Shown here one piece after another: positions 5,129 to 23,536 of a stretch of DNA of 31,922 nucleotides. Under the pieces are notes generated by a model that saw only the letters and a program-made list of their open reading frames with translations, did no database searches and was not told where the DNA came from. Both the position numbers and the translations under genes were made by a program. Source of the stretch: a virus; the IMG/VR virus record IMGVR_UViG_3300022752_000254, positions 1-31,922 of that record; one strand, written 5' to 3'. Position 1 is the first letter of the stretch, and every line of letters begins with the position of its first letter.

Positions 5129-5530
5129 ATGTCCTACACAATAAAACACCAAAAAACTGAAAACGTTGCTCGCCGTGGGTTCAAATCCCACCCCGTCCGC
5201 TTGTTGTCTGACAGTGAGTTACGGCCGGAACGTAGCAAAAACGTAGCAAGGCAGATCAATGATCTTGGGTTTTGCAGGCTTGTCGGCGCGGTTTGCCTGC
5301 GCGCATTTCTTGACCGCTTTTCTTACGGAAAAAACAACCGCCACCGCTCAGAGGCCGTTCATTCCGAGACCTTAGAGGAGCTGGAGAGATTTATTCAGAT
5401 CGACGCCCCTAAGTGGTGGGAGGCTGTTGGTTTTAAGTATTTGTCTGGTGACTGGCTGCTACGGCACTGCCGCGGCAAGGCCCACGTCCTTTCCATGCGC
5501 TGGCATCAACTGAAAGGAGGGCTCGTATGA
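5129..5530 (+). CDS. Hypothetical protein with reading frame crossing attP (start uncertain)
   Basis: The open frame gives 133 aa, but the first ~45 residues translate the attachment core and arm repeats. No ATG or GTG start occurs downstream until 5498, and only TTG codons offer alternatives. The C-terminal ~75 residues (from about SEAVHSETLEELERFIQ to MRWHQLKGGLV) look like genuine protein: helical, with Trp pairs. The stop overlaps the next gene (ATGA) after an AAAGGAGG sequence. Function is unknown. If real from 5129, integration would replace its N-terminus. Confidence 0.35.
   Translation: MSYTIKHQKTENVARRGFKSHPVRLLSDSELRPERSKNVARQINDLGFCRLVGAVCLRAFLDRFSYGKNNRHRSEAVHSETLEELERFIQIDAPKWWEAVGFKYLSGDWLLRHCRGKAHVLSMRWHQLKGGLV
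5155..5201 (+). other. attP: attP core: tRNA 3'-end fragment
   Basis: The sequence contains a T-arm with a perfect 5-bp stem (GTGGG 5175-5179, loop TTCAAAT, CCCAC 5187-5191). It is followed by an acceptor 3' strand CCCGTCC and discriminator G at 5199. Upstream bases (AAACGTTGCTCGCC) look like the anticodon-stem/long variable arm of a Ser- or Leu-type tRNA. There is no tRNA 5' half, so this is the 3' fragment carried by the phage to restore the tRNA gene on integration. Both flanks are phage, hence attP. Confidence 0.7.
5231..5249 (+). repeat. Right pair of arm-type repeats CGTAGCAA
   Basis: CGTAGCAA occurs at 5231-5238 and 5242-5249, in the same orientation as the left pair and about 32 nt beyond the attachment core. 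The left pair lies about 56 nt before the core. The symmetric bracketing of a tRNA-like core supports an attP site. Confidence 0.55.
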
Positions 5531-5679
5531 CCTACGAAACAATCAAAGACCTTGCCCAACTGGTGGCGATTGCCACGGGCTGGGCGCTCATTATCGGGGC
5601 GGCCTGGGGACTGCTGGTGTTTGCGGTCTCCTTCGCCGCTTGGTTTATCAAAAAAGCCAAAGACGAGGCCAGCCAATGA
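5527..5679 (+). CDS. Small membrane protein, 50 aa
   Basis: It starts at ATG 5527 behind AAAGGAGGGC, a strong ribosome binding site. There are two hydrophobic stretches in close succession (VAIATGWALIIGAAWGLLVFAVSFAAWFI, residues about 11-39) and a charged end KKAKDEASQ. It is probably an inner-membrane peptide of the early region, function unknown. It is the first of four genes joined by ATGA overlaps. Confidence 0.5.
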   Translation: MTYETIKDLAQLVAIATGWALIIGAAWGLLVFAVSFAAWFIKKAKDEASQ

Positions 5680-5879
5680 GCGAGGCAGAGAAGCACGTCT
5701 TGGTAGAAAAGCTGATCGCAGGGCTGGTGGAAAAGTTTAACGCCACGCCGGATCTGGCTCGCCATGAGCACGAGACAATGGATCCGGAAGAGCTTCGGGA
5801 GCTGGTGGCCAAGCGCCCCGAGGAGCCGGCGCCTGTGGGGTACGAACACTTTGAACACCTGCGAGAGGAGGGCGCATGA
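5676..5879 (+). CDS. Hypothetical acidic protein, 67 aa
   Basis: Begins at ATG 5676 overlapping the preceding TGA. The product is helical and acidic (MSEAEKHVLVEKLIAGLVEKF at the start, then HEHETMDPEELRELVAK), with no recognised domain. Its place in a run of ATGA-coupled small genes supports it being translated. It may be a small early effector, but nothing in the sequence identifies a target. Confidence 0.5.
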   Translation: MSEAEKHVLVEKLIAGLVEKFNATPDLARHEHETMDPEELRELVAKRPEEPAPVGYEHFEHLREEGA

Positions 5880-6046
5880 GCCTGACCACCAGACTGATGG
5901 CCTTTGCCGGATTCGTTACGATTGCCGACACGGGCCGGGCGGTGCACGTGATTATTGACCGCCGCAAAAAAAACGCCCGCCTAAAGCCGCACGATTCTCT
6001 ACGCGGGTACTACAAAAAGCTGAAGCACGTGGAGAAGGGGCGATGA
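5876..6046 (+). CDS. Hypothetical basic protein, 56 aa
   Basis: Third in the ATGA-overlap chain. The N-terminal half is mildly hydrophobic (RLMAFAGFVTIADTGRAVHVII). The C-terminal half is strongly basic (DRRKKNARLKPHDSLRGYYKK), suggesting nucleic-acid contact. No family recognised. Confidence 0.45.
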   Translation: MSLTTRLMAFAGFVTIADTGRAVHVIIDRRKKNARLKPHDSLRGYYKKLKHVEKGR

Positions 6047-6306
6047 CGCGGGTGTCTTTGCGCAAGCGGGAGGAGGCCTGCAAGACCCGGCCGGTTCTGC
6101 GCCGCTGCCGATGGATGGCGGAGATTTTGCGGAAAAATGGCGAGCTGCCTAGCTGCGAGAAGCTGGGGCAGGAGTTTGAGGTTTCCTACAAAACCATCGC
6201 CAGAGACATCGACCTGATGCGGGATTTTATGGGCTACCCGATTGAGTACGACCGGCCCAGCTACACGTGGAAGCTGGCCGGCCCGCTACCGGAGCCAGTG
6301 CTCTAA
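6043..6306 (+). CDS. HTH (DeoR/YafY-type N-terminal domain) DNA-binding protein
   Basis: 87 aa. Residues 20-80 match the winged HTH found at the N-terminus of WYL/YafY and DeoR regulators: RCRWMAEILRKNG, LPSCEKLGQEFEVSYKTIARDIDLMRDFMG, then a wing (PIEYDRPSYTWKLAG). It lacks the ligand-sensing domain of full-length family members, so it probably acts as a stand-alone phage regulator. It is translationally coupled to the gene before (ATGA at 6043). Confidence 0.6.
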   Translation: MTRVSLRKREEACKTRPVLRRCRWMAEILRKNGELPSCEKLGQEFEVSYKTIARDIDLMRDFMGYPIEYDRPSYTWKLAGPLPEPVL

Positions 6307-6311
6307 AATTT

Positions 6312-6428
6312 ATGGCAAACAAAAACACAATGCGGTTACGGAAAGGCAGGGATGGCTATGGCGAAAAGCGCGGTCATCCGGTGGACACCAAGAGAAAGCC
6401 AAAGCCGGAAAGGAACAAAAAACAATGA
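6312..6428 (+). CDS. Very basic 38-aa peptide
   Basis: From ATG 6312 to TGA 6428. The composition is dominated by Lys/Arg (MANKNTMRLRKGRDGYGEKR, then TKRKPKPERNKKQ), suggesting nucleic-acid binding or a disordered tail. No domain is visible. It ends in an ATGA overlap with the next gene. Coding status is plausible but unproven. Confidence 0.35.
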   Translation: MANKNTMRLRKGRDGYGEKRGHPVDTKRKPKPERNKKQ

Positions 6429-6625
6429 TTGAACCAACTGACGTAAGGGATCTGGAGCAAGAGGGTGTGCTGGGAAACATCAACCTATCCCAAAGCTGGA
6501 GTGCCGGGGTGCAGGACGCGTTCCTCAATGCCCGCAGGGACATCTTAATTCAAGGCCTGGTCGCCCGAGTGGAGCGGCTGGAGGAGGTCCTGGCGGATCT
6601 CATTAAAAAACAAAAAGGAGGGTAA
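6425..6625 (+). CDS. Hypothetical coiled-coil protein, 66 aa
   Basis: Starts at ATG 6425, overlapping the previous stop, behind AAGGAACAAAAAACA. The C-terminal half is a likely coiled coil (GLVARVERLEEVLADLIKK). The N-terminus is acidic (MIEPTDVRDLEQEGVLGNI). Function unknown. The coil suggests an oligomeric early protein. Confidence 0.45.
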   Translation: MIEPTDVRDLEQEGVLGNINLSQSWSAGVQDAFLNARRDILIQGLVARVERLEEVLADLIKKQKGG

Positions 6626-6627
6626 TT

Positions 6628-6726
6628 ATGAGTGAACTAGAGCTACTTGTAAGACTACTGATTCCGGCAGGGGCCTTGGCGTTATTTGCCCTGGCGTGGC
6701 CGGCCTTAAAAAGCTGGGACGCGTAG
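6628..6726 (+). CDS. Single-pass membrane peptide, 32 aa
   Basis: ATG 6628 follows a good ribosome binding site (AAAAAGGAGGGTAATT). Nearly the whole peptide is one hydrophobic helix (LLVRLLIPAGALALFALAWPAL) with an acidic N-terminus. The next gene starts immediately after the stop (TAGATG). Confidence 0.4.
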   Translation: MSELELLVRLLIPAGALALFALAWPALKSWDA

Positions 6727-7239
6727 ATGACCTACGCAGGCCACCATTGTGATGCGGCCGACAGGCCGGAGGCCAGCCATACCCCCGATATGGCCAGCTT
6801 ATGCGACAACCCCGTGGAGGCCCTTTACCGGGAAGCTACGGAATCGTACAGCAGTGGTGGCCTGCCCGGCTTTCAAAAATGGCTAACTAACGCCACGCAG
6901 GAGGAGGCCCGACAGCTGACGGTGGAAACGCTATCCCGGGTGCTGCCGGTGCTGGTCAAGCCAGGCAACGTCCGGCTGCGGGTGTATGCCCTGATGTTTG
7001 CCATTAACAGCGATGCGCTCAACGGGGTAGTGACGCAGACGGCGGCCGCCAAGGAAATGGGACTTACTAGGGCGGCAATGAGCAAACAGGTGCAGTGGTG
7101 GCTGGTGTTTTTGGGTTTTCGCCGCAACGCGCACACCAAAAGCGCGGAGGCGGTGGAAAGTTATCGAACAGTGCAGCGGGAGCGGCACTGGAGACGTCAA
7201 TCAATCGGCAAAAAAGGAGGAAAAAATGCAAATCATTGA
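6727..7239 (+). CDS. HTH protein of the early region, 170 aa
   Basis: The C-terminal half holds a helix-turn-helix (TQTAAAKEMGLTRAAMSKQVQWW, residues about 102-124) followed by a basic tail (ERHWRRQSIGKKGGKN). The N-terminal half is helical without a recognised fold. It is likely a replication or transcription DNA-binding protein. It starts directly after the previous stop and overlaps the next gene by 14 nt, with that gene's GGAGG inside its 3' end. Confidence 0.5.
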   Translation: MTYAGHHCDAADRPEASHTPDMASLCDNPVEALYREATESYSSGGLPGFQKWLTNATQEEARQLTVETLSRVLPVLVKPGNVRLRVYALMFAINSDALNGVVTQTAAAKEMGLTRAAMSKQVQWWLVFLGFRRNAHTKSAEAVESYRTVQRERHWRRQSIGKKGGKNANH

Positions 7240-7858
7240 ACTGAAACGCTTGGACCGTGAGGGCCGGGCGGTGGAAAAGGTGCCCGGAGTAAGGATTACG
7301 CCAAGCGGGCTGGTGTTTGAAAAGGCGCTAAACATCGAGCAGTGGAAGGAGGTGGGCCGGTGGCTGCAGAGCTGCCGCCGGGCGCAGACCTGGCTGGACG
7401 CGGACTGGCTAAACTATGGCAAAAAGTCATACGACGAGGGGGATCTGCAGGAGGCATTGGACCAGCTTGAGTTTAACTTTGGGCCTAAGACAGACGCTTT
7501 GCTTGCACTAGGGACGGTGCCGATTGAAAAGCGGCGGCCGGAACTGACGGCGGCGCATTATTTGGAGCTTCAAAAGCTTAAGACAGCCAAAGATCAGGAC
7601 AAATGGGCCAAGCTGGCGGTGGCGGAAAAACTAACTCCTAACGATCTAAAGCGATCCATTGCCTCCGGTGAGGTTGTGCGAGGATCCGACGAAAGATCCA
7701 GCGGAGTCTGGACGCTGCAAGCCTGGGTGACTGAATTTGAGATCTGGAAGCGGGACCTGCCGGCTGGATGGCAGGACGACAAAAGCTGGCACCGGATGGT
7801 AAGGGATTGGATCAAGCCGGTGATTGAGTTTGTCGAAACCGTAAAAGCCAAGGAGTAG
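7226..7858 (+). CDS. Phage early protein resembling a ParB/KorB-type HTH-containing family
   Basis: 210 aa, from ATG 7226 preceded by AAAGGAGGAAAAA. The segment WLDADWLNYGKKSYDEGDL, a long helical section, RRPELTAAHYLELQKLK, WAKLAVAEKLTPNDLKRSI resembles proteins of actinobacterial and phage origin that carry a KorB-like DNA-binding core. This resemblance is from memory and moderate. It may help in replication or partition. The N-terminus (residues 1-40) is a separate beta-rich part. TAGTG coupling links it to the next gene. Confidence 0.45.
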   Translation: MQIIELKRLDREGRAVEKVPGVRITPSGLVFEKALNIEQWKEVGRWLQSCRRAQTWLDADWLNYGKKSYDEGDLQEALDQLEFNFGPKTDALLALGTVPIEKRRPELTAAHYLELQKLKTAKDQDKWAKLAVAEKLTPNDLKRSIASGEVVRGSDERSSGVWTLQAWVTEFEIWKRDLPAGWQDDKSWHRMVRDWIKPVIEFVETVKAKE

Positions 7859-17782: not shown

Positions 17783-17793
17783 CCTCCTTGGCG

Positions 17794-17833
17794 GGGCGGT
17801 CCCGACTTCGGTCGGGGCCGCCCTTCCTTTTTT
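17794..17833 (+). terminator. Strong intrinsic terminator after the capsid gene
   Basis: A 13-bp stem (GGGCGGTCCCGAC 17794-17806 with GTCGGGGCCGCCC 17811-17823, one G-U pair) is closed by a TTCG tetraloop and followed by TTCCTTTTTT. It should end most transcripts after the capsid gene, leaving a lower level for the downstream connector, cassette and tail genes, or imply a new promoter or antitermination. Confidence 0.85.
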
Positions 17834-17844
17834 GAGATCCTGAC

Positions 17845-18144
17845 ATGTCCGAGTTCACCGATTGCCTGAAAGACGCCTTGGCCGTTGCCTTTGATCAATT
17901 CGGCACAACGGCCACCTTTGGATCCACGGCCATCACCGGCGTACTCTCCACCATCACCCGCCGGGAAGCTCTTGAGCTTCACGGCTACGATCTGGATCTC
18001 AACGCCACCTTCACCGCCGACAAGGCCGTGCTGACCAGCGTCCCAGTCATCGGCTCCACCGCTCTCATTAATTCCGTCACCTATCGCGTCGTCAGCACCG
18101 ATACCAATCCTGGCTGCTACGTCATCGGCCTGCGCGAGGGATAG
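17845..18144 (+). CDS. Head-tail connector, lambda FII-like
   Basis: 99 aa. It sits immediately after the capsid gene's terminator. The pattern (TATFGSTAITGVLSTITRREAL, DLDLNATFTADKAVL, then INSVTYRVVSTDTN and YVIGLREG) is that of the small beta-barrel head-tail joining proteins (FII family). These add to the portal ring and receive the tail. The next gene starts 5 nt after the stop, so the auxiliary cassette is in the same operon. Confidence 0.62.
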   Translation: MSEFTDCLKDALAVAFDQFGTTATFGSTAITGVLSTITRREALELHGYDLDLNATFTADKAVLTSVPVIGSTALINSVTYRVVSTDTNPGCYVIGLREG

Positions 18145-18149
18145 AATCC

Positions 18150-19844
18150 ATGCCACGAGATCCTAAAATTTCCATCTATCTGATCGCCGGCCGGGAAGCC
18201 CAGTACATCGGCCGCTGCCTGGATGCGTTCAGGCCCATGGCAGACGAGCTGGTCGTCTGCATGGCCCGTGGAGGAGCACCGGATGACGGCACCGAGGACA
18301 TCGCCAGGGACAAAGGCGCCACCATCGTCCACTACCAAAACCAGTCTGCGCACGCAGATTGGCCCCACGTCGACCACTTCGCCCACGCCCGCAACACCGC
18401 CCTGGATGCCTGCACCGGAGATGTGGCCATGTGGGTGGATGCGGACGACCTGCCCGCCGCCGGACTTAAAAACGCGCTTAAAAACGCCGCCAGCGAGCTT
18501 TTGAAGGCCGACAAGGTCGGCATCTGGGCGGCTGTTTACAATGTGACCAACGCCAAGTTGACCCCCGTCCGGGAACGCCTGGTCAAGCGCCTGCCAAATG
18601 GTGGCTGGGCCGGCCGCTGGCACTACGCGGTTCACGAAGCTCTTTTGGCTGCTCCTGGATACGAAATTCGTGCCGAGCAGACCAGCTGGGTTGAGCACCA
18701 CCCCATCGGCTACAAGGCCGGCTCTGCGGAGCGTAACATTCGCATTCTGCAGGGTGAATTGGCCGAGGCCGGAAAGTACGCCTATTACCTTCAACAAGAG
18801 TTATTTCTTTCAGGTAAGCGTGACCAGTCTGCCACCTGGTCCCACGTTTCCGCCTTGTGGCCCACTCAGGATCCCACGTTGCGCTACGAATCTTGGTGTA
18901 ATTACGCCCAGGCAATGCCGGATCGGGATCAGCGCATGGCCGTCTTGGCCAAGGCCCATCAGGCCAGCCCATCCCGCCGCGAGGCGCCGTTCTACATGGC
19001 TCGGGAGGAGGCCAGTGCCGGCCGCTGGGGCGCCGCCTACTACCTGCTGAAAAGCGCCATGGTGTTGCCGGATCCCGGGGTCACCCAGTGGAACGCCCAG
19101 CGCGCCATTTATGATTTTGAGTGCATTGACCTATACATCGCCGCCGCCCGGGCCGTGGGGGATAACGCAGAGGCCGACAAGATCGAGGCTCAGTGGCGTA
19201 AACTAAAGCCCGTCCGCATTTCCGTCTGCCACGCCACCCGCGGGCGTCCGCAGGAGGCCATTAACGCCCGAATCCTCTGGATGAAAAAAGCGGCCGATCC
19301 AGCCAGCGTCGAGTGGATCTTCAGCTGCGACGATGATGATCCCAAGGCCGATGTCCTTAAAGCCTGGGCGCCCATCAAGGGCAAGGGCGGCTGCATCGCC
19401 GCATGGAACCGTGCCGCCGAGCAGGCCAAGGGAGAGGTCATTGTGCAGGGCAGCGATGACTGGGATCCGCCCTTGTGGTGGGACCGGATCCTGCTGGAAC
19501 GCATGGGCGACACCACGCGGGAAAGCGTGCTGGCTGTCAGCGACGGCCACCGCAAGGACCATCTCCTGTGCATGGCCATCCTCACGCGCAACCGGCTTAA
19601 AAAACAGGGCCACTTGTTCGCGCCGGAGTACGACGCCGCCTCCGGCATCTACTCCGATAACGAGTTCACCACCCGTGCCTACGCGGACAAATGCGTCATT
19701 GAGGCTCGTGACGTCATTTTCACGCACAACAATCCCATGTTCACCGGCCAAAAGGCGGACGAGGAGTTTCTGCGCCACAACTCCGCCACCAATTACGAGA
19801 CCGGCAAAAAGATTTTTGATGCACGCAACCCGTCGGCGCCATGA
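18150..19844 (+). CDS. Double-domain GT2 glycosyltransferase with a helical middle
   Basis: 564 aa. The first GT-A domain (about 5-215) starts KISIYLIAGREAQYIGRCLDAF and has the metal/nucleotide-sugar motif WVDADD (95-100). Residues about 216-350 are alpha-helical and repeat-like (TPR-like: 'YMAREEASAGRWGAAYYLLKSA'). A second GT2-like domain (354-564) starts VRISVCHATRGRP with DDDD at 394-397 and QGSDDWDPP. The enzyme should transfer one or two sugars to a protein or glycan. No signal or TM segment, so it is cytoplasmic. It is the first gene of the inserted cassette, with ATGA overlap to the next. Confidence 0.75.
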   Translation: MPRDPKISIYLIAGREAQYIGRCLDAFRPMADELVVCMARGGAPDDGTEDIARDKGATIVHYQNQSAHADWPHVDHFAHARNTALDACTGDVAMWVDADDLPAAGLKNALKNAASELLKADKVGIWAAVYNVTNAKLTPVRERLVKRLPNGGWAGRWHYAVHEALLAAPGYEIRAEQTSWVEHHPIGYKAGSAERNIRILQGELAEAGKYAYYLQQELFLSGKRDQSATWSHVSALWPTQDPTLRYESWCNYAQAMPDRDQRMAVLAKAHQASPSRREAPFYMAREEASAGRWGAAYYLLKSAMVLPDPGVTQWNAQRAIYDFECIDLYIAAARAVGDNAEADKIEAQWRKLKPVRISVCHATRGRPQEAINARILWMKKAADPASVEWIFSCDDDDPKADVLKAWAPIKGKGGCIAAWNRAAEQAKGEVIVQGSDDWDPPLWWDRILLERMGDTTRESVLAVSDGHRKDHLLCMAILTRNRLKKQGHLFAPEYDAASGIYSDNEFTTRAYADKCVIEARDVIFTHNNPMFTGQKADEEFLRHNSATNYETGKKIFDARNPSAP

Positions 19845-20605
19845 TCCACACGCACAACGCCCTGCGGCTGGGCGACAACTTGATTCAGCTGAACTTTCTG
19901 CGCCGCGCCTGCTTGGCTGACCCGGCTCTGGAGGTGACCCACTATCACAATCCGCAGCTCTGCAGGTTTGAAGAAATTGATGCGCTGCGGTCTGATATTT
20001 CAACCCGCCTACGGATCCGCCCGATTGAGGAGGCTCCTGCCGGCAGCATCGACAGCTGGCGCAACGCCGGCGGCTGGTGGGAGCGTCACCCGGACCGGCT
20101 GGACTTTGCCAGGTTCCATCTGGCTTGGTTTGAGGAGCTGGCTGGCCGCATGGGAATTTCCAACCCCATCCGCACCGTGGATGACCTGCTTTTGGATTAT
20201 CCGACGCTGGACAGTTTTATTCCCATGGCGCCGGAGTGCGACGTGCTGGTCATCAACTCGCCAGGCCTTTCGGGCCAGTTCCTCAACTTTAACCCGGAAG
20301 ATTTCCGTGATCTGATCGCCCGGCTGACGCTGAAAGGGCTGCGCGTTATGACCACAGCGCCTACTCCTTTTTGCCCATATTTCATGTCCAGAAACGTCAC
20401 TTGGATCGGAGCGACATCCGTCAAGGCTAGGGTCATCGTGGGCACCAGCACCGGACCCAGCTGGCCGTGTCTAAACGTCCATAACAGGGACAAACTCATC
20501 ATCCTTTGCGCCGATCACGAGGACGTGATTCTTACAAGGGACAGCAAAATGGCGCGTAGCGCCCACCACGCCATCCATCTGCTCGAAAAGTGGGGGATCC
20601 TGTGA
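19841..20605 (+). CDS. GT-B/GT9-like glycosyltransferase
   Basis: 254 aa. The N-terminus HNALRLGDNLIQLNFLRRACL is the glycine/asparagine loop of heptosyltransferase-like (GT9) proteins (usual form xxGLGDxLxxxPxLR). The C-terminal half has 'DVLVINSPGLSGQFL' and 'RVIVGTSTGPSWPCLNV', like the nucleotide-sugar-binding Rossmann half. It is shorter than a typical GT9 (~340 aa). It likely adds a sugar in the same pathway as the double GT2. It is joined to its neighbours by overlapping stops/starts (ATGA, GTGA). Confidence 0.5.
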   Translation: MIHTHNALRLGDNLIQLNFLRRACLADPALEVTHYHNPQLCRFEEIDALRSDISTRLRIRPIEEAPAGSIDSWRNAGGWWERHPDRLDFARFHLAWFEELAGRMGISNPIRTVDDLLLDYPTLDSFIPMAPECDVLVINSPGLSGQFLNFNPEDFRDLIARLTLKGLRVMTTAPTPFCPYFMSRNVTWIGATSVKARVIVGTSTGPSWPCLNVHNRDKLIILCADHEDVILTRDSKMARSAHHAIHLLEKWGIL

Positions 20606-21132
20606 GCGCCTACAAGGACGAGCTCACCCGCGCCATGCTGGAGTGCTCAACGGATCCGCGTTGCCGTTTTATCGGGTACGGCGTGAAAATCGGAGGCCGC
20701 GCGCTGGGCACCTTGCGGGATGTGCCGGATCGCCAGCTCATGGAGACGCCCGTCGCTGAAAACCTGATGGTCGGCCTAGCCACCGGCCTGTCGCTGGCCG
20801 GCCTGCGGCCTGTTGTCTTCATCGAGCGCATGGATTTTATCCTTAACGCGCTGGATGCCATCGTGAACCATTTGGCTGCTGCCGATAAAATTAGCCGCGG
20901 GCAGTTTCGGCCGGCCGTCATTTTGCGCGTCGTCATTGGTAACCGGCATAAGCCTCTCTACACCGGCCCCACCCACGTGCAGGACTTTACCGAAGCCGTG
21001 CGTCAGATGGTAGATTTCCCCGTCATTCGCCTGACGTTGCCCGAGCAAATCCGCCCGGCTTACCACGACGCCATGCGCGACTTGGATGGCGGCCGCAGCA
21101 CCATGCTTGTCGAGCACAAGGACCTGATCTGA
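20602..21132 (+). CDS. E1-beta-like pyrimidine-binding half of a split ThDP enzyme
   Basis: 176 aa from GTG 20602 (overlaps the previous TGA). It matches the transketolase pyrimidine-binding domain of 2-oxoacid dehydrogenase E1-beta: RQLMETPVAENLMVGLATGLSLAGLRPVVFIERMDFILNALDAIVNHLA. The conserved Glu (E53, in TPVAEN) contacts the thiamine pyrimidine N1'. The usual C-terminal transketolase_C domain (~130 aa) is absent. It should pair with the E1-alpha-like gene at 22220. With no E2/E3 genes in view, it may make a C-C bond or a decarboxylated aldehyde for a sugar donor; the substrate is unknown. Confidence 0.75.
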   Translation: MSAYKDELTRAMLECSTDPRCRFIGYGVKIGGRALGTLRDVPDRQLMETPVAENLMVGLATGLSLAGLRPVVFIERMDFILNALDAIVNHLAAADKISRGQFRPAVILRVVIGNRHKPLYTGPTHVQDFTEAVRQMVDFPVIRLTLPEQIRPAYHDAMRDLDGGRSTMLVEHKDLI

Positions 21133-22223
21133 TGCGCCAGAACAAATACAGCGATTACAAGATCTTCAGCTTTCCGGAAAAAGTGGACAGCTTCCGCACC
21201 CGCACGCTGACCGCCCCCGTCTACGTCCGCATCAAGCCCACCAACCGCTGTAACCATGCCTGCCGTTTCTGCACCTATTCCGATGGCACCACCCGGCCCA
21301 AGGACCGGCCGGATCTCCACCTTCAGTCCGCCATGCACGCGGAGATGAAGGAGCAGGACGTCATGCCCACGTGGAAGCTCATGGAACTGATGGACGACTT
21401 GCGCGAAATGAACGTGCAGGCCGTCACCTTTTCCGGGGGAGGGGAGCCGCTATTCCACCCCGCCATTACTCAGGCCATGACGTCCACCCTGTCCTCCGGC
21501 ATCGATCTTTCCATCATCACCAACGGCCAGCTGCTGACCGGTGAGAGGGCTGAAATCCTTACCCAGGCCAATTGGGTGCGCGTCTCCATCGACTACACCA
21601 GCGCCGAACAGATGCACCAGAGCCGGGCCGTGCCGCCGGCCAGCTTTGAGGCCGTGCTGAAAAACATGCGGCAGTTCGCCTCCGCCAAGACCGCCACGTG
21701 CGACCTAGGGGTCAATTTTATCGTCACCCGCTACAACTACGAGGGCATCACACCGTTTGCCAAGACCCTCAAGGAATGCGGCGTGGAAAACGTCCGCTTC
21801 TCGCCAGTGTACGTGCAGGGATTTAAGGATTACCACAAGGACATCGCCGTGCGCGTGCGCGAACAGCTGGCCGAATGCCAGTCGCTGGTCGACGACACGT
21901 TCTCCGTCAACAGCACCTATGACCTGGATAGCCCCAGCAAGAGCCCAGTGCGGCCCTTTCACCGCTGCCTGTACGCCCAGGCCGTCTGCGTGGCGGCGGC
22001 CGATCTGAACATCTACGCCTGCCACAACACCGCCTACAGCTCCCACGGCCGGATTGCCTCGTTCCAGGACCAATCCTTTCGTCAGGCGTGGTTCAGTCCC
22101 GAGGCGCGGGAGTGGCACGCCAAATTCAACCCAGGCGTGGCCTGCCTGCACGAATGCGCCAATCACAACAAGGTGGCGCTCTTTGAAAGTCTGGCGTCCG
22201 ACAGCCATGACGCCTTCGTATGA
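21132..22223 (+). CDS. Radical SAM enzyme with C-terminal SPASM-like cysteines
   Basis: 363 aa. CxxxCxxC cluster motif at C40, C44, C47 (RIKPTNRCNHACRFCTYSDG), GGGEP (102-106) for SAM binding, and a TIM-barrel pattern. C-terminal cysteines C279, C286, C297, C338 and C342 resemble a SPASM/twitch auxiliary Fe-S site. Radical SAM/SPASM enzymes modify sugars, peptides or cofactors. Being between the two halves of the ThDP enzyme suggests a shared substrate. The start overlaps the previous stop by one base (TGATG); the stop overlaps the next gene (ATGA). Confidence 0.8.
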   Translation: MRQNKYSDYKIFSFPEKVDSFRTRTLTAPVYVRIKPTNRCNHACRFCTYSDGTTRPKDRPDLHLQSAMHAEMKEQDVMPTWKLMELMDDLREMNVQAVTFSGGGEPLFHPAITQAMTSTLSSGIDLSIITNGQLLTGERAEILTQANWVRVSIDYTSAEQMHQSRAVPPASFEAVLKNMRQFASAKTATCDLGVNFIVTRYNYEGITPFAKTLKECGVENVRFSPVYVQGFKDYHKDIAVRVREQLAECQSLVDDTFSVNSTYDLDSPSKSPVRPFHRCLYAQAVCVAAADLNIYACHNTAYSSHGRIASFQDQSFRQAWFSPEAREWHAKFNPGVACLHECANHNKVALFESLASDSHDAFV

Positions 22224-22843
22224 CCGCCCACGATCTTATTAACTTTGAACTTCGGATCCGCCGGCTGTTTGCGGATGGGAAGCTGCCGTATCTCATTCAC
22301 CTTTGTGGCGGAAACGAAACCCAGCTCATTGGGATTTTTCAGGAAATTGATCCGCAGGACTGGGTTTTTTCCACCCACCGCTCCCATTACCACTATTTGC
22401 TCCACGGCGGGCATCCGGACGCGTTGGAGCAGATGATCCGGGAGGGCCGCAGCATGTTTGTCTTTGATCGCAGGAAAAACTTCTACAGCTCCAGCGTGCT
22501 GGCCGGCACCTGCGCCATCGCCGCCGGCGTGGCTCATGCTTTGGCAGAGGCCGGCAGTCCGCGCAAGGTGTGGTGTTTCCTGGGGGACGGGGCCGAGGAC
22601 GAGGGCCATTTTTATGAGGCAGTAAACTACGTGGACGGAAAAAACCTGCCCTGCACGTTCATTATTGAGGATAACGACCGCAGCGTGGACACCACGAAGG
22701 CCCAGCGGGGCAGGGGACGCATCGGCTGGCCGCCCTGCGTGCGCCGGTATCACTACGTGCCGGAGTACCCTCACGGCGGAGCCGGCCTGAAAACTATGGT
22801 CACGTTTGATCCGCGCATCCGGCCCGTGTGGGATCAGTCGTGA
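22220..22843 (+). CDS. E1-alpha-like diphosphate-binding half of a split ThDP enzyme
   Basis: 207 aa. It matches E1-alpha/transketolase N-terminal enzymes: 'DWVFSTHRSHYHYLLHGG' (48-64, the family's YR.HG region), GVAHALAEAG, then the ThDP motif GDGAEDEGHFYEAVNY (122 onward) closing at EDND (150-153). GDG...N binds Mg and the diphosphate. The family's usual length is 320-370 aa, so N- and C-terminal parts are shortened. It pairs with the pyrimidine half at 20602, but the gene order is reversed (Pyr before PP) and split by a radical SAM gene. Translation is coupled on both sides. Confidence 0.75.
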   Translation: MTAHDLINFELRIRRLFADGKLPYLIHLCGGNETQLIGIFQEIDPQDWVFSTHRSHYHYLLHGGHPDALEQMIREGRSMFVFDRRKNFYSSSVLAGTCAIAAGVAHALAEAGSPRKVWCFLGDGAEDEGHFYEAVNYVDGKNLPCTFIIEDNDRSVDTTKAQRGRGRIGWPPCVRRYHYVPEYPHGGAGLKTMVTFDPRIRPVWDQS

Positions 22844-23085
22844 TCCGCCAGGGCATGCAGTTTGGCCGGGCCGTGGCCGGCTACGTCGCCGGTGGATTCA
22901 GATCCGTGCCTGATGATGTGCTGGTCCATCGGCGCGGAATCTGCACGCAGTGCGAGCACTGGGATCCGGCCGGATTTGCCGGCACGGGTCGGTGCCGCAA
23001 GTGCGGGTGTAGTTGCTGGAAATTACATTTCCCGCAATCCTCCTGCCCCATCGGCAAATGGCCGGCGGTGACACCGTTGTCGTAG
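22840..23085 (+). CDS. Zinc-ribbon protein, 81 aa
   Basis: From GTG 22840 (overlapping the previous TGA). Eight residues into the core come two Cys pairs: CTQC and CRKCGCSCW, then a final CPIGKW. This C-x2-C ... C-x2-C-x-C ... CPxGKW pattern is a small zinc-ribbon family seen in phages, often beside glycosyltransferases (remembered, not searched). It may bind a cassette partner or nucleic acid. It ends the coupled cassette, 4 nt before the tail terminator gene. Confidence 0.6.
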   Translation: MIRQGMQFGRAVAGYVAGGFRSVPDDVLVHRRGICTQCEHWDPAGFAGTGRCRKCGCSCWKLHFPQSSCPIGKWPAVTPLS

Positions 23086-23089
23086 GGAT

Positions 23090-23536
23090 ATGGCCGCCGT
23101 CACCATGCTGGATCGCCTGATTGAAGCCGGTCTCAAGGAGCTTCTTTCCGCCTCCGTCACCGGCTTTACCTATCACCTGTCCCAGGAAACCATTAAAAAA
23201 GATCCTCCTTTTGTGGCCATCCGCGCCACCATGGGGGGCGAAACACCCGTCCGTGGCTCCGGCGTTTTTGAAATACCAGTGGAAATTGTCATGGCCGACA
23301 AGGCGGACGACACCACGGCGCAGGCTTTTAACTCCAAAAGCGCCCAGCTTCTGCAGGCATTTTATCACGATACCTCTACCGTATCCCGCCTGAACGCCAC
23401 CACAGCCATCGGTTCCGCCCGCGCCTACCGTTGCGACGTCACCGGCAGCGTCGGCGGTGTGGAGACCGACGAACGGCTTTGGACCCGCACGCTAAACCTC
23501 ACCGTTCTGGCCTACCCCAACAGCATTGCCGGTTAG
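23090..23536 (+). CDS. Tail terminator/completion-like protein
   Basis: 148 aa. Alpha/beta: TMLDRLIEAGLKELLSASVTG, then strands 'FVAIRATMGG', 'GVFEIPVEIVMADKADD' and a C-terminal 'TLNLTVLAYP'. Size and order (just before the tail tube gene) match gpU-type tail terminators, which cap the tail and join the head. GTGACA, a one-mismatch version of the start motif, lies 16 nt before the ATG. Call rests on position more than sequence. Confidence 0.5.
   Translation: MAAVTMLDRLIEAGLKELLSASVTGFTYHLSQETIKKDPPFVAIRATMGGETPVRGSGVFEIPVEIVMADKADDTTAQAFNSKSAQLLQAFYHDTSTVSRLNATTAIGSARAYRCDVTGSVGGVETDERLWTRTLNLTVLAYPNSIAG

Follow-up and report, generated by a model that had tools for sequence, protein, structure and literature searches.

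In this work, we are presenting an analysis of six co-directional open reading frames (ORFs) found in the IMG/VR virus record IMGVR_UViG_3300022752_000254, a freshwater virus infecting bacteria, whose whole stretch of 31,922 bases is referred to as the window. In the ORF listing these genes, labelled G1 to G6 in their order and together called the cassette, sit between a connector-type gene (Hc) at the left border and a small gene (TT) at the right one. Consecutive genes overlap by 4, 4, 1, 4 and 4 nt, in agreement with a first-pass annotation made from the sequence alone; all six are genuine genes and coupled in translation. GTG starts were taken for G3 (20602) and G6 (22840), because relatives start there or a standard GTGA overlap results. 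The genes and their borders are as follows.

17845..18144, + strand: Hc, head closure or FII-like connector, left border, outside the cassette (Phage_attach 1.1e-4, phrog_82 0.004)
18150..19844, + strand: G1, GT2 glycosyltransferase with a second glycosyltransferase-like part (Glycos_transf_2 1.4e-12, phrog_13126 2e-17, phrog_14945 1e-7)
19841..20605, + strand: G2, GT9-like glycosyltransferase of predicted heptosyltransferase fold (model pLDDT 92.7; PDB folds WaaC 1e-7, TibC 4e-6)
20602..21132, + strand: G3, pyrimidine (Pyr), E1-beta-like chain of a putative thiamine diphosphate (ThDP) enzyme (Transket_pyr 4e-8; phrog_34187 residues 237-403, 1.7e-46; Glu57)
21132..22223, + strand: G4, radical S-adenosylmethionine (SAM) protein with Twitch-like C-terminus, rSAM-A family (Radical_SAM 8e-18; invariant Cys; folds DesII, BlsE)
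22220..22843, + strand: G5, pyrophosphate (PP), E1-alpha-like chain of the putative ThDP enzyme, with GDG...EDN motif (E1_dh 3e-18; phrog_34187 residues 9-194, 1.2e-68)
22840..23085, + strand: G6, zinc-ribbon protein, accessory (phrog_13558 9e-10)
23090..23536, + strand: TT, putative tail terminator, right border (named by position; syntenic in relatives)

The order Hc-G1-G2-G3-G4-G5-TT was found in 73 viral loci, several of them one contig retrieved twice, with 46 distinct G5 sequences. The conserved core is composed of five genes, coding for GT2, the GT9-like protein, ThDP Pyr, radical SAM and ThDP PP. As the place between G5 and TT holds G6 in three contigs only (the window, L004 and L005; L numbers denote related contigs compared with the window), this gene is an optional extra, and the zinc ribbon named by the first-pass annotation, while matching phrog_13558, is not an integral part of the set. 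Scattering of the genes in related phages, which had been named as an argument against a linked cassette, was not seen; the genes are syntenic within one morphogenesis operon and the ordered set recurs in dozens of other viral contigs. Direct or near adjacency of G3, G4 and G5 extends to unrelated large phages (74-735 kb), several of which have FkbM-like methyltransferases and glycosyltransferases around these genes. That we are dealing with a real, co-inherited glycan cassette is close to certain.

Gathering of relatives with the capsid protein as bait allowed us to compare what occupies this place. G1 is the constant gene, located after Hc wherever the sequence of a relative is long enough, while the genes between G1 and TT vary, G2-G3-G4-G5 being one of the sets. 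In L087, L089-L091 and L239 the slot holds G2, a split transketolase, a methyltransferase and G4, so that the E1-like pair is replaced and G1 kept. In L225, L228 and others there is a methyltransferase with a short GT9-like protein (recognised by motif only, with no Pfam match), in L241 an exostosin GT47 with a short GT9-like protein, and in L245 a methyltransferase-like protein, a nucleotide-sugar transferase and an exostosin-like protein. The site looks like a variable cargo slot for glycan-type genes, in which GT2 is kept and the downstream genes are exchanged, and the ThDP pair appears interchangeable with a split transketolase, which we report as new. Two of these variants are worth recording on their own: the split phage transketolase at L087:6200-7998 consists of 213 and 151 aa proteins, the second without the C-terminal domain, with a methyltransferase alongside and G4 retained, and the C-terminal half of the exostosin GT47 of L241 (7012-8862, 616 aa) matches radical SAM weakly and below threshold.

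A single family, PHROG 34187, covers both ThDP chains, G5 corresponding to its first half (residues 9-194) and G3 to its second (residues 237-403); the fused form is present in cyanophages S-SM2 and P-TIM68 and in many other contigs. Given the natural fusions and the shared family, the two chains very probably form one enzyme, and the split ThDP enzyme of the first-pass annotation appears to be a genuine PP/Pyr pair with ThDP residues present. The Mg-ThDP motif of G5, which aligns to the pyruvate dehydrogenase (PDH) E1 1ni4_A, has G122, D123 and G124 invariant and Asn152 conserved in more than 90% of sequences; the catalytic Glu57 of G3 is likewise invariant and falls on the E1-beta Glu in 1ik6 and 1um9. 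G3 is about 176-180 aa long and covers only residues 4-174 of the 324 of 1um9_B; Transket_pyr is its sole Pfam match and the transketolase C-terminal (TKC) domain was not found in it. This C-terminal domain is the E2-docking part of E1-beta. No E2 or E3 gene is present among the cassette genes and none was recognised near the related loci that were read. Judged by its sequence, the pair is a minimal PDH-E1-like enzyme with intact catalytic residues and without the E2-binding domain. Identity with the E1 of the PDH complex was rejected, as the TKC domain is absent and there is no E2. A Transketolase_N-type PP chain was likewise not found in G5, which matches E1_dh, whereas the L087 variant does match transketolase; the window pair is E1-type by every profile.

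A two-chain E1-like ThDP enzyme in a sugar-pathway context without E2 resembles the sugar branching pairs, namely Plm8/Plm9 of paulomycin and EvdU5/EvdS3 of everninomicin, which are also two-chain, PDH-E1-like and E2-less and belong to sugar pathways with glycosyltransferases, and presumably AviB1/AviB2 of avilamycin as a further such pair. Plm8/Plm9 attaches a two-carbon branch to a sugar, giving paulomycose (PMC4802897), C2 branching by EvdU5/EvdS3 was hypothesised for eurekanate (PMC10338323), and formation of C2 branches from pyruvate on keto-sugars by E2-less E1-like pairs is reported or proposed (PMC4802897, PMC10338323). The phage chains differ from these pairs in being minimal (no TKC domain), sometimes fused, and coupled to a radical SAM enzyme or a zinc alcohol dehydrogenase (Zn-ADH), and the phage cassette is devoid of a 4,6-dehydratase.

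G4 had been described as a radical SAM/SPASM enzyme. The first part of this name stands (Radical_SAM Pfam, 8e-18; CX3CX2C motif with C40, C44 and C47 invariant), but full SPASM identity was rejected, since the Pfam SPASM model gave no match and the four invariant C-terminal Cys (C279, C297, C338 and C342) are closer to a Twitch domain. The model of G4 reached pLDDT 81.5, with low values around the SAM cluster (residues 41-70), and its best folds were DesII and BlsE, enzymes whose substrates are sugar nucleotides or nucleoside sugars; at 15-18% identity they catalyse reactions different from the one considered here. MoaA and SuiB are also among the alignments, the Twitch part by itself yielded no more than weak PDB matches, headed by unrelated proteins, and no specific name came from NCBIfam, where 61 families matched weakly, the best 25 of the 61 all being far from cut-off. 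The Cys pair C279-X17-C297 aligns with BtrN at equal spacing, in a match that is weak (E 3e-4 for the whole profile). BtrN, a Twitch radical SAM enzyme whose auxiliary cluster has four Cys (three in MoaA), carries out the two-electron oxidation of a cyclitol hydroxyl (PMC9012708). With this enzyme, a 2-deoxy-scyllo-inosamine dehydrogenase, G4 shares the CX3CX2C core, and a common four-Cys Twitch-like C-terminus with X17 spacing of its first two Cys is suggested by the weak alignment; sequence identity is very low and the N-terminal part of G4 is longer (NKYSDxKI motif). As a separate observation, L055, a phage of 199 kb, has a radical SAM gene (5145-7268, 707 aa) whose match is split after residue 59; the insert, starting CLVAGTRVVTENG, looks intein-like.

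The partner of the ThDP enzyme was scored within 5 kb for 296 ThDP PP sequences, clustered at 80% identity into 49 clusters; at least 572 virus relatives of the ThDP family exist, of which 80 were kept. The G4-type rSAM-A gene accompanies 22 of the 49 clusters and Zn-ADH 24, none has both and three have neither, among the last L202, resembling an ordinary PDH E1, and L151, with G4 about 6 kb away. For the viral clusters the corresponding numbers are 14, 24, 0 and 1 (Fisher p 1e-9, ignoring relatedness). Whole-record searches, including both complete cyanophage genomes, gave no record with rSAM-A and Zn-ADH together, and positive controls worked. On the ThDP tree the partner switched about 5 times (minimum 5), at least 3 of these switches being forced by well-supported branches. 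Profile comparison identifies the ADH as a classical zinc enzyme. Its gene and the ThDP gene often share 4-8 nt, the ADH gene occupying the position that G4 has beside G5. Among the closest known systems are the LPS-type clusters of S-SM2 and P-TIM68, where a homologous fused ThDP enzyme is found with kinase, nucleotidyltransferase, epimerase and phosphoheptose isomerase genes; they differ from the window in having Zn-ADH instead of radical SAM, in belonging to 190 kb myoviruses and in genome location. Lipopolysaccharide (LPS) clusters have been noted in cyanophages (PMC3037559). We report as new that the radical SAM gene seems interchangeable with a Zn-ADH gene, by which the key step of the cassette would be open to either of two unrelated enzyme kinds.

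In 2-deoxystreptamine pathways other than that of BtrN the 2-deoxy-scyllo-inosamine dehydrogenase is a zinc/NAD-type enzyme. The BtrN step is assigned to it there (PMC5461906, PMC8304502), just as G4 alternates with Zn-ADH in our material. As both exchanges have the same form, alcohol oxidation is the simplest reaction that the two partners could share.

Both glycosyltransferases claimed by the first-pass annotation were recovered, G1 by its Glycos_transf_2 match and G2 by its fold. In G1 the second glycosyltransferase-like part spans residues 355-512 (phrog_14945), and no tblastn match to G1 was obtained in isolated phages. G2 gave no Pfam, PHROG or NCBIfam match, the Pfam GT9 model remaining without a hit at E 0.1, but in its AlphaFold model it folds as GT9, with the heptosyltransferases WaaC and TibC as closest PDB folds; it shares their fold with only 254 aa and without a sequence family match. 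A Verrucomicrobia metagenome-assembled genome (MAG; L133:3137-6580) also encodes a multi-membrane-type protein of 1147 aa with a G2-like domain as its C-terminal part; this may be natural or an assembly effect.

Cellular loci of bacteria and archaea were picked by G4 similarity (n=80), and a split transketolase N part was present in 52 and a C part in 47 of them. HldE-like genes were found in 46/80, a methyltransferase family in 43/80 and a GmhA-like isomerase in 31/80, the heptose-gene counts being given without a background rate. In several DPANN archaeal loci the E1-like pair adjoins radical SAM genes. Cellular relatives of G4 appear to sit in heptose-type glycan clusters, which we also report as new. 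The nearest of them (65%) lies in a glycan cluster of a Verrucomicrobia MAG with HddA-, HddC- and GDP-mannose-dehydratase-like genes, named by reading of the sequence. Among isolated phages, Verrucomicrobia phage P8625 and Akkermansia phage Moulinsart come closest in capsid and terminase, at about 30% identity; with both the closest phages and the closest cellular G4 being verrucomicrobial, a verrucomicrobial host is plausible. Some uncharacterised cellular clusters (L145, L149, L154, L197 and similar), common in Lachnospiraceae, carry two radical SAM genes, one of G4 type and one of SPASM type, frequently accompanied by genes for a split transketolase, a methyltransferase and an HldE-like protein.

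A sugar role of the cassette is highly probable, and the earlier suggestion of an unusual sugar is in outline borne out by the sugar-type enzymes present, while nothing was found in favour of acyl modification or peptide chemistry. The individual reactions, the sugar and the acceptor are inferred. By radical SAM chemistry similar to that of BtrN, G4 would turn a hydroxyl of an activated sugar, possibly of heptose type, into a ketone; the sugar must be host-supplied, as the cassette has no gene forming nucleoside diphosphate (NDP) sugars. G5/G3 would use the carbonyl product for C-C bond formation (or cleavage), most likely in a two-carbon addition giving a branched or chain-extended sugar, comparable to the paulomycose and eurekanate pairs. 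The G4 product is favoured as the carbonyl substrate because the E1-like pair and the split transketolase both perform C2 chemistry on carbonyls; whether G4 is the oxidase feeding the ThDP enzyme we consider an even question. The sugar would then be transferred by G2 and G1 to a cytoplasmic acceptor, most simply a virion protein, since no membrane or flippase gene was recognised within the cassette, and the virion is by a slight preference our glycan target. Taken as a whole, the proposition of an exchangeable, late-expressed phage cassette by which an unusual sugar is made and attached has about equal chances of being right or wrong.

Several points weigh against this reading. Product, substrate and glycan are all unobserved, the cassette does not contain an NDP-sugar-forming gene, and a membrane gene may lie elsewhere, as annotation covered only part of the window. 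Neither donor nor acceptor can be read from the GT2 and GT9 folds, and the heptose-type neighbourhood of the cellular relatives may not hold for this phage. The BtrN match, with E 3e-4 for the whole profile, drops to 0.13 for the C-terminus alone. Only four independent pairs on well-supported branches underlie the partner exchange, for which reason the sign test (p 0.25) cannot reach significance, and exclusive partners could mean two pathways sharing a ThDP enzyme. That radical SAM and Zn-ADH indeed work in different pathways, G4 being an epimerase, dehydratase, deaminase or peptide-modifier, is an unlikely but serious alternative: G4 aligns also with the deaminase DesII, the decarboxylase BlsE, MoaA and SuiB, it reaches no NCBIfam equivalog cut-off, and few independent switches underlie the statistics of exclusivity, whereas Zn-ADH, an enzyme of alcohol/carbonyl redox, takes the corresponding position and never occurs together with G4. 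A split transketolase has been shown to be active as an alpha2beta2 enzyme (PMC7661550). The phage ThDP enzyme could work in the transketolase sense, with the ketose made by G4 or Zn-ADH as C2 donor and a chain-altered, not C-branched, product. The slots of L087, L089-L091 and L239, in which a split transketolase stands for the E1-like pair with G1, G2 and G4 retained, and the 52/80 cellular loci agree with it, but the window pair is of E1 type throughout and branch addition is known from E1-like pairs, which makes this possibility rather improbable.

The same sugar pathway may instead place its glycan on the host envelope during infection, for receptor masking or superinfection exclusion. Phage glycosyltransferases are often proposed to alter the host O-chain (PMC7029224), cellular relatives occur in surface-glycan clusters, the nearest cellular G4 in a glycan cluster of a Verrucomicrobia MAG, and G2 resembles the LPS heptosyltransferase WaaC. 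Against this, the position in the head-tail operon implies late expression, when a change of envelope is less useful, and no GtrA-like or flippase gene was recognised. The other fold match of G2, TibC, is a heptosyltransferase glycosylating a protein, the autotransporter TibA. We hold the envelope to be a doubtful target. A boost of host pyruvate or acetoin metabolism by the E1-like pair would explain its similarity to PDH E1, but with no E2/E3 gene nearby, the E2-docking TKC domain missing and the pair, in the loci read, mostly surrounded by glycosyltransferase and sugar genes, it is very improbable. Some phages glucosylate DNA, and this general precedent is what speaks for sugar hypermodification of DNA here; the ORFs searched, many of them without any match, contained no recognised base-modifying gene, the neighbourhood is structural, not replicative, and the cellular relatives are glycan clusters, so this explanation is hardly credible.

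Returning to a sugar made for the virion, the mycobacteriophages Che8 and Rita (cited in PMC11256854) offer phage-encoded glycosyltransferases and a capsid glycan like the one proposed; their glycosyltransferase genes lie near the genome 3' end and, in the part of the source consulted, no ThDP/radical SAM set is described. Literature searches gave no relevant description of the present gene set, in line with the first-pass statement that no characterised phage pathway contains it. Phage glycosylation genes as such are already known. If our interpretation is true, dedicated chemistry lets small phages vary the sugars of the virion or host surface, with their own C-C-forming ThDP enzyme and a radical SAM or ADH partner, and the slot swaps glycan genes like alleles. 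The radical SAM/ADH exchange predicts an alcohol oxidase function for the uncharacterised G4 family, widespread in cellular glycan clusters. Tentatively, and with rather more doubt than confidence, we suggest that phages, bacteria and DPANN archaea share a so far undescribed sugar module, in which a minimal E1-like ThDP carboligase is fed by a Twitch radical SAM oxidase or Zn-ADH and builds C-branched or chain-extended sugars as exchangeable phage glycan coats; the alternation of the two partners would then represent repeated non-homologous replacement.

As for the borders of the cassette, the head closure/FII-like identity of Hc, claimed earlier, is weakly supported (Phage_attach 1.1e-4 is below the curated cut-off; phrog_82 0.004), and TT gave no family match in profile searches, the tail terminator label coming from position alone. 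Late expression of the cassette would follow from its place in the head-tail operon. A scan of the + strand over the region gave no sigma-70-like promoter, and the strongest element is the following flanking feature.

17793..17824, + strand: strong intrinsic-terminator-like hairpin 3' of the major capsid gene (14 bp stem, 11 G-C pairs, T tail)

A similar hairpin is present in 12/12 relatives inspected. The cassette is accordingly located downstream of a probable partial terminator within the late region. This hairpin may set capsid versus downstream expression.

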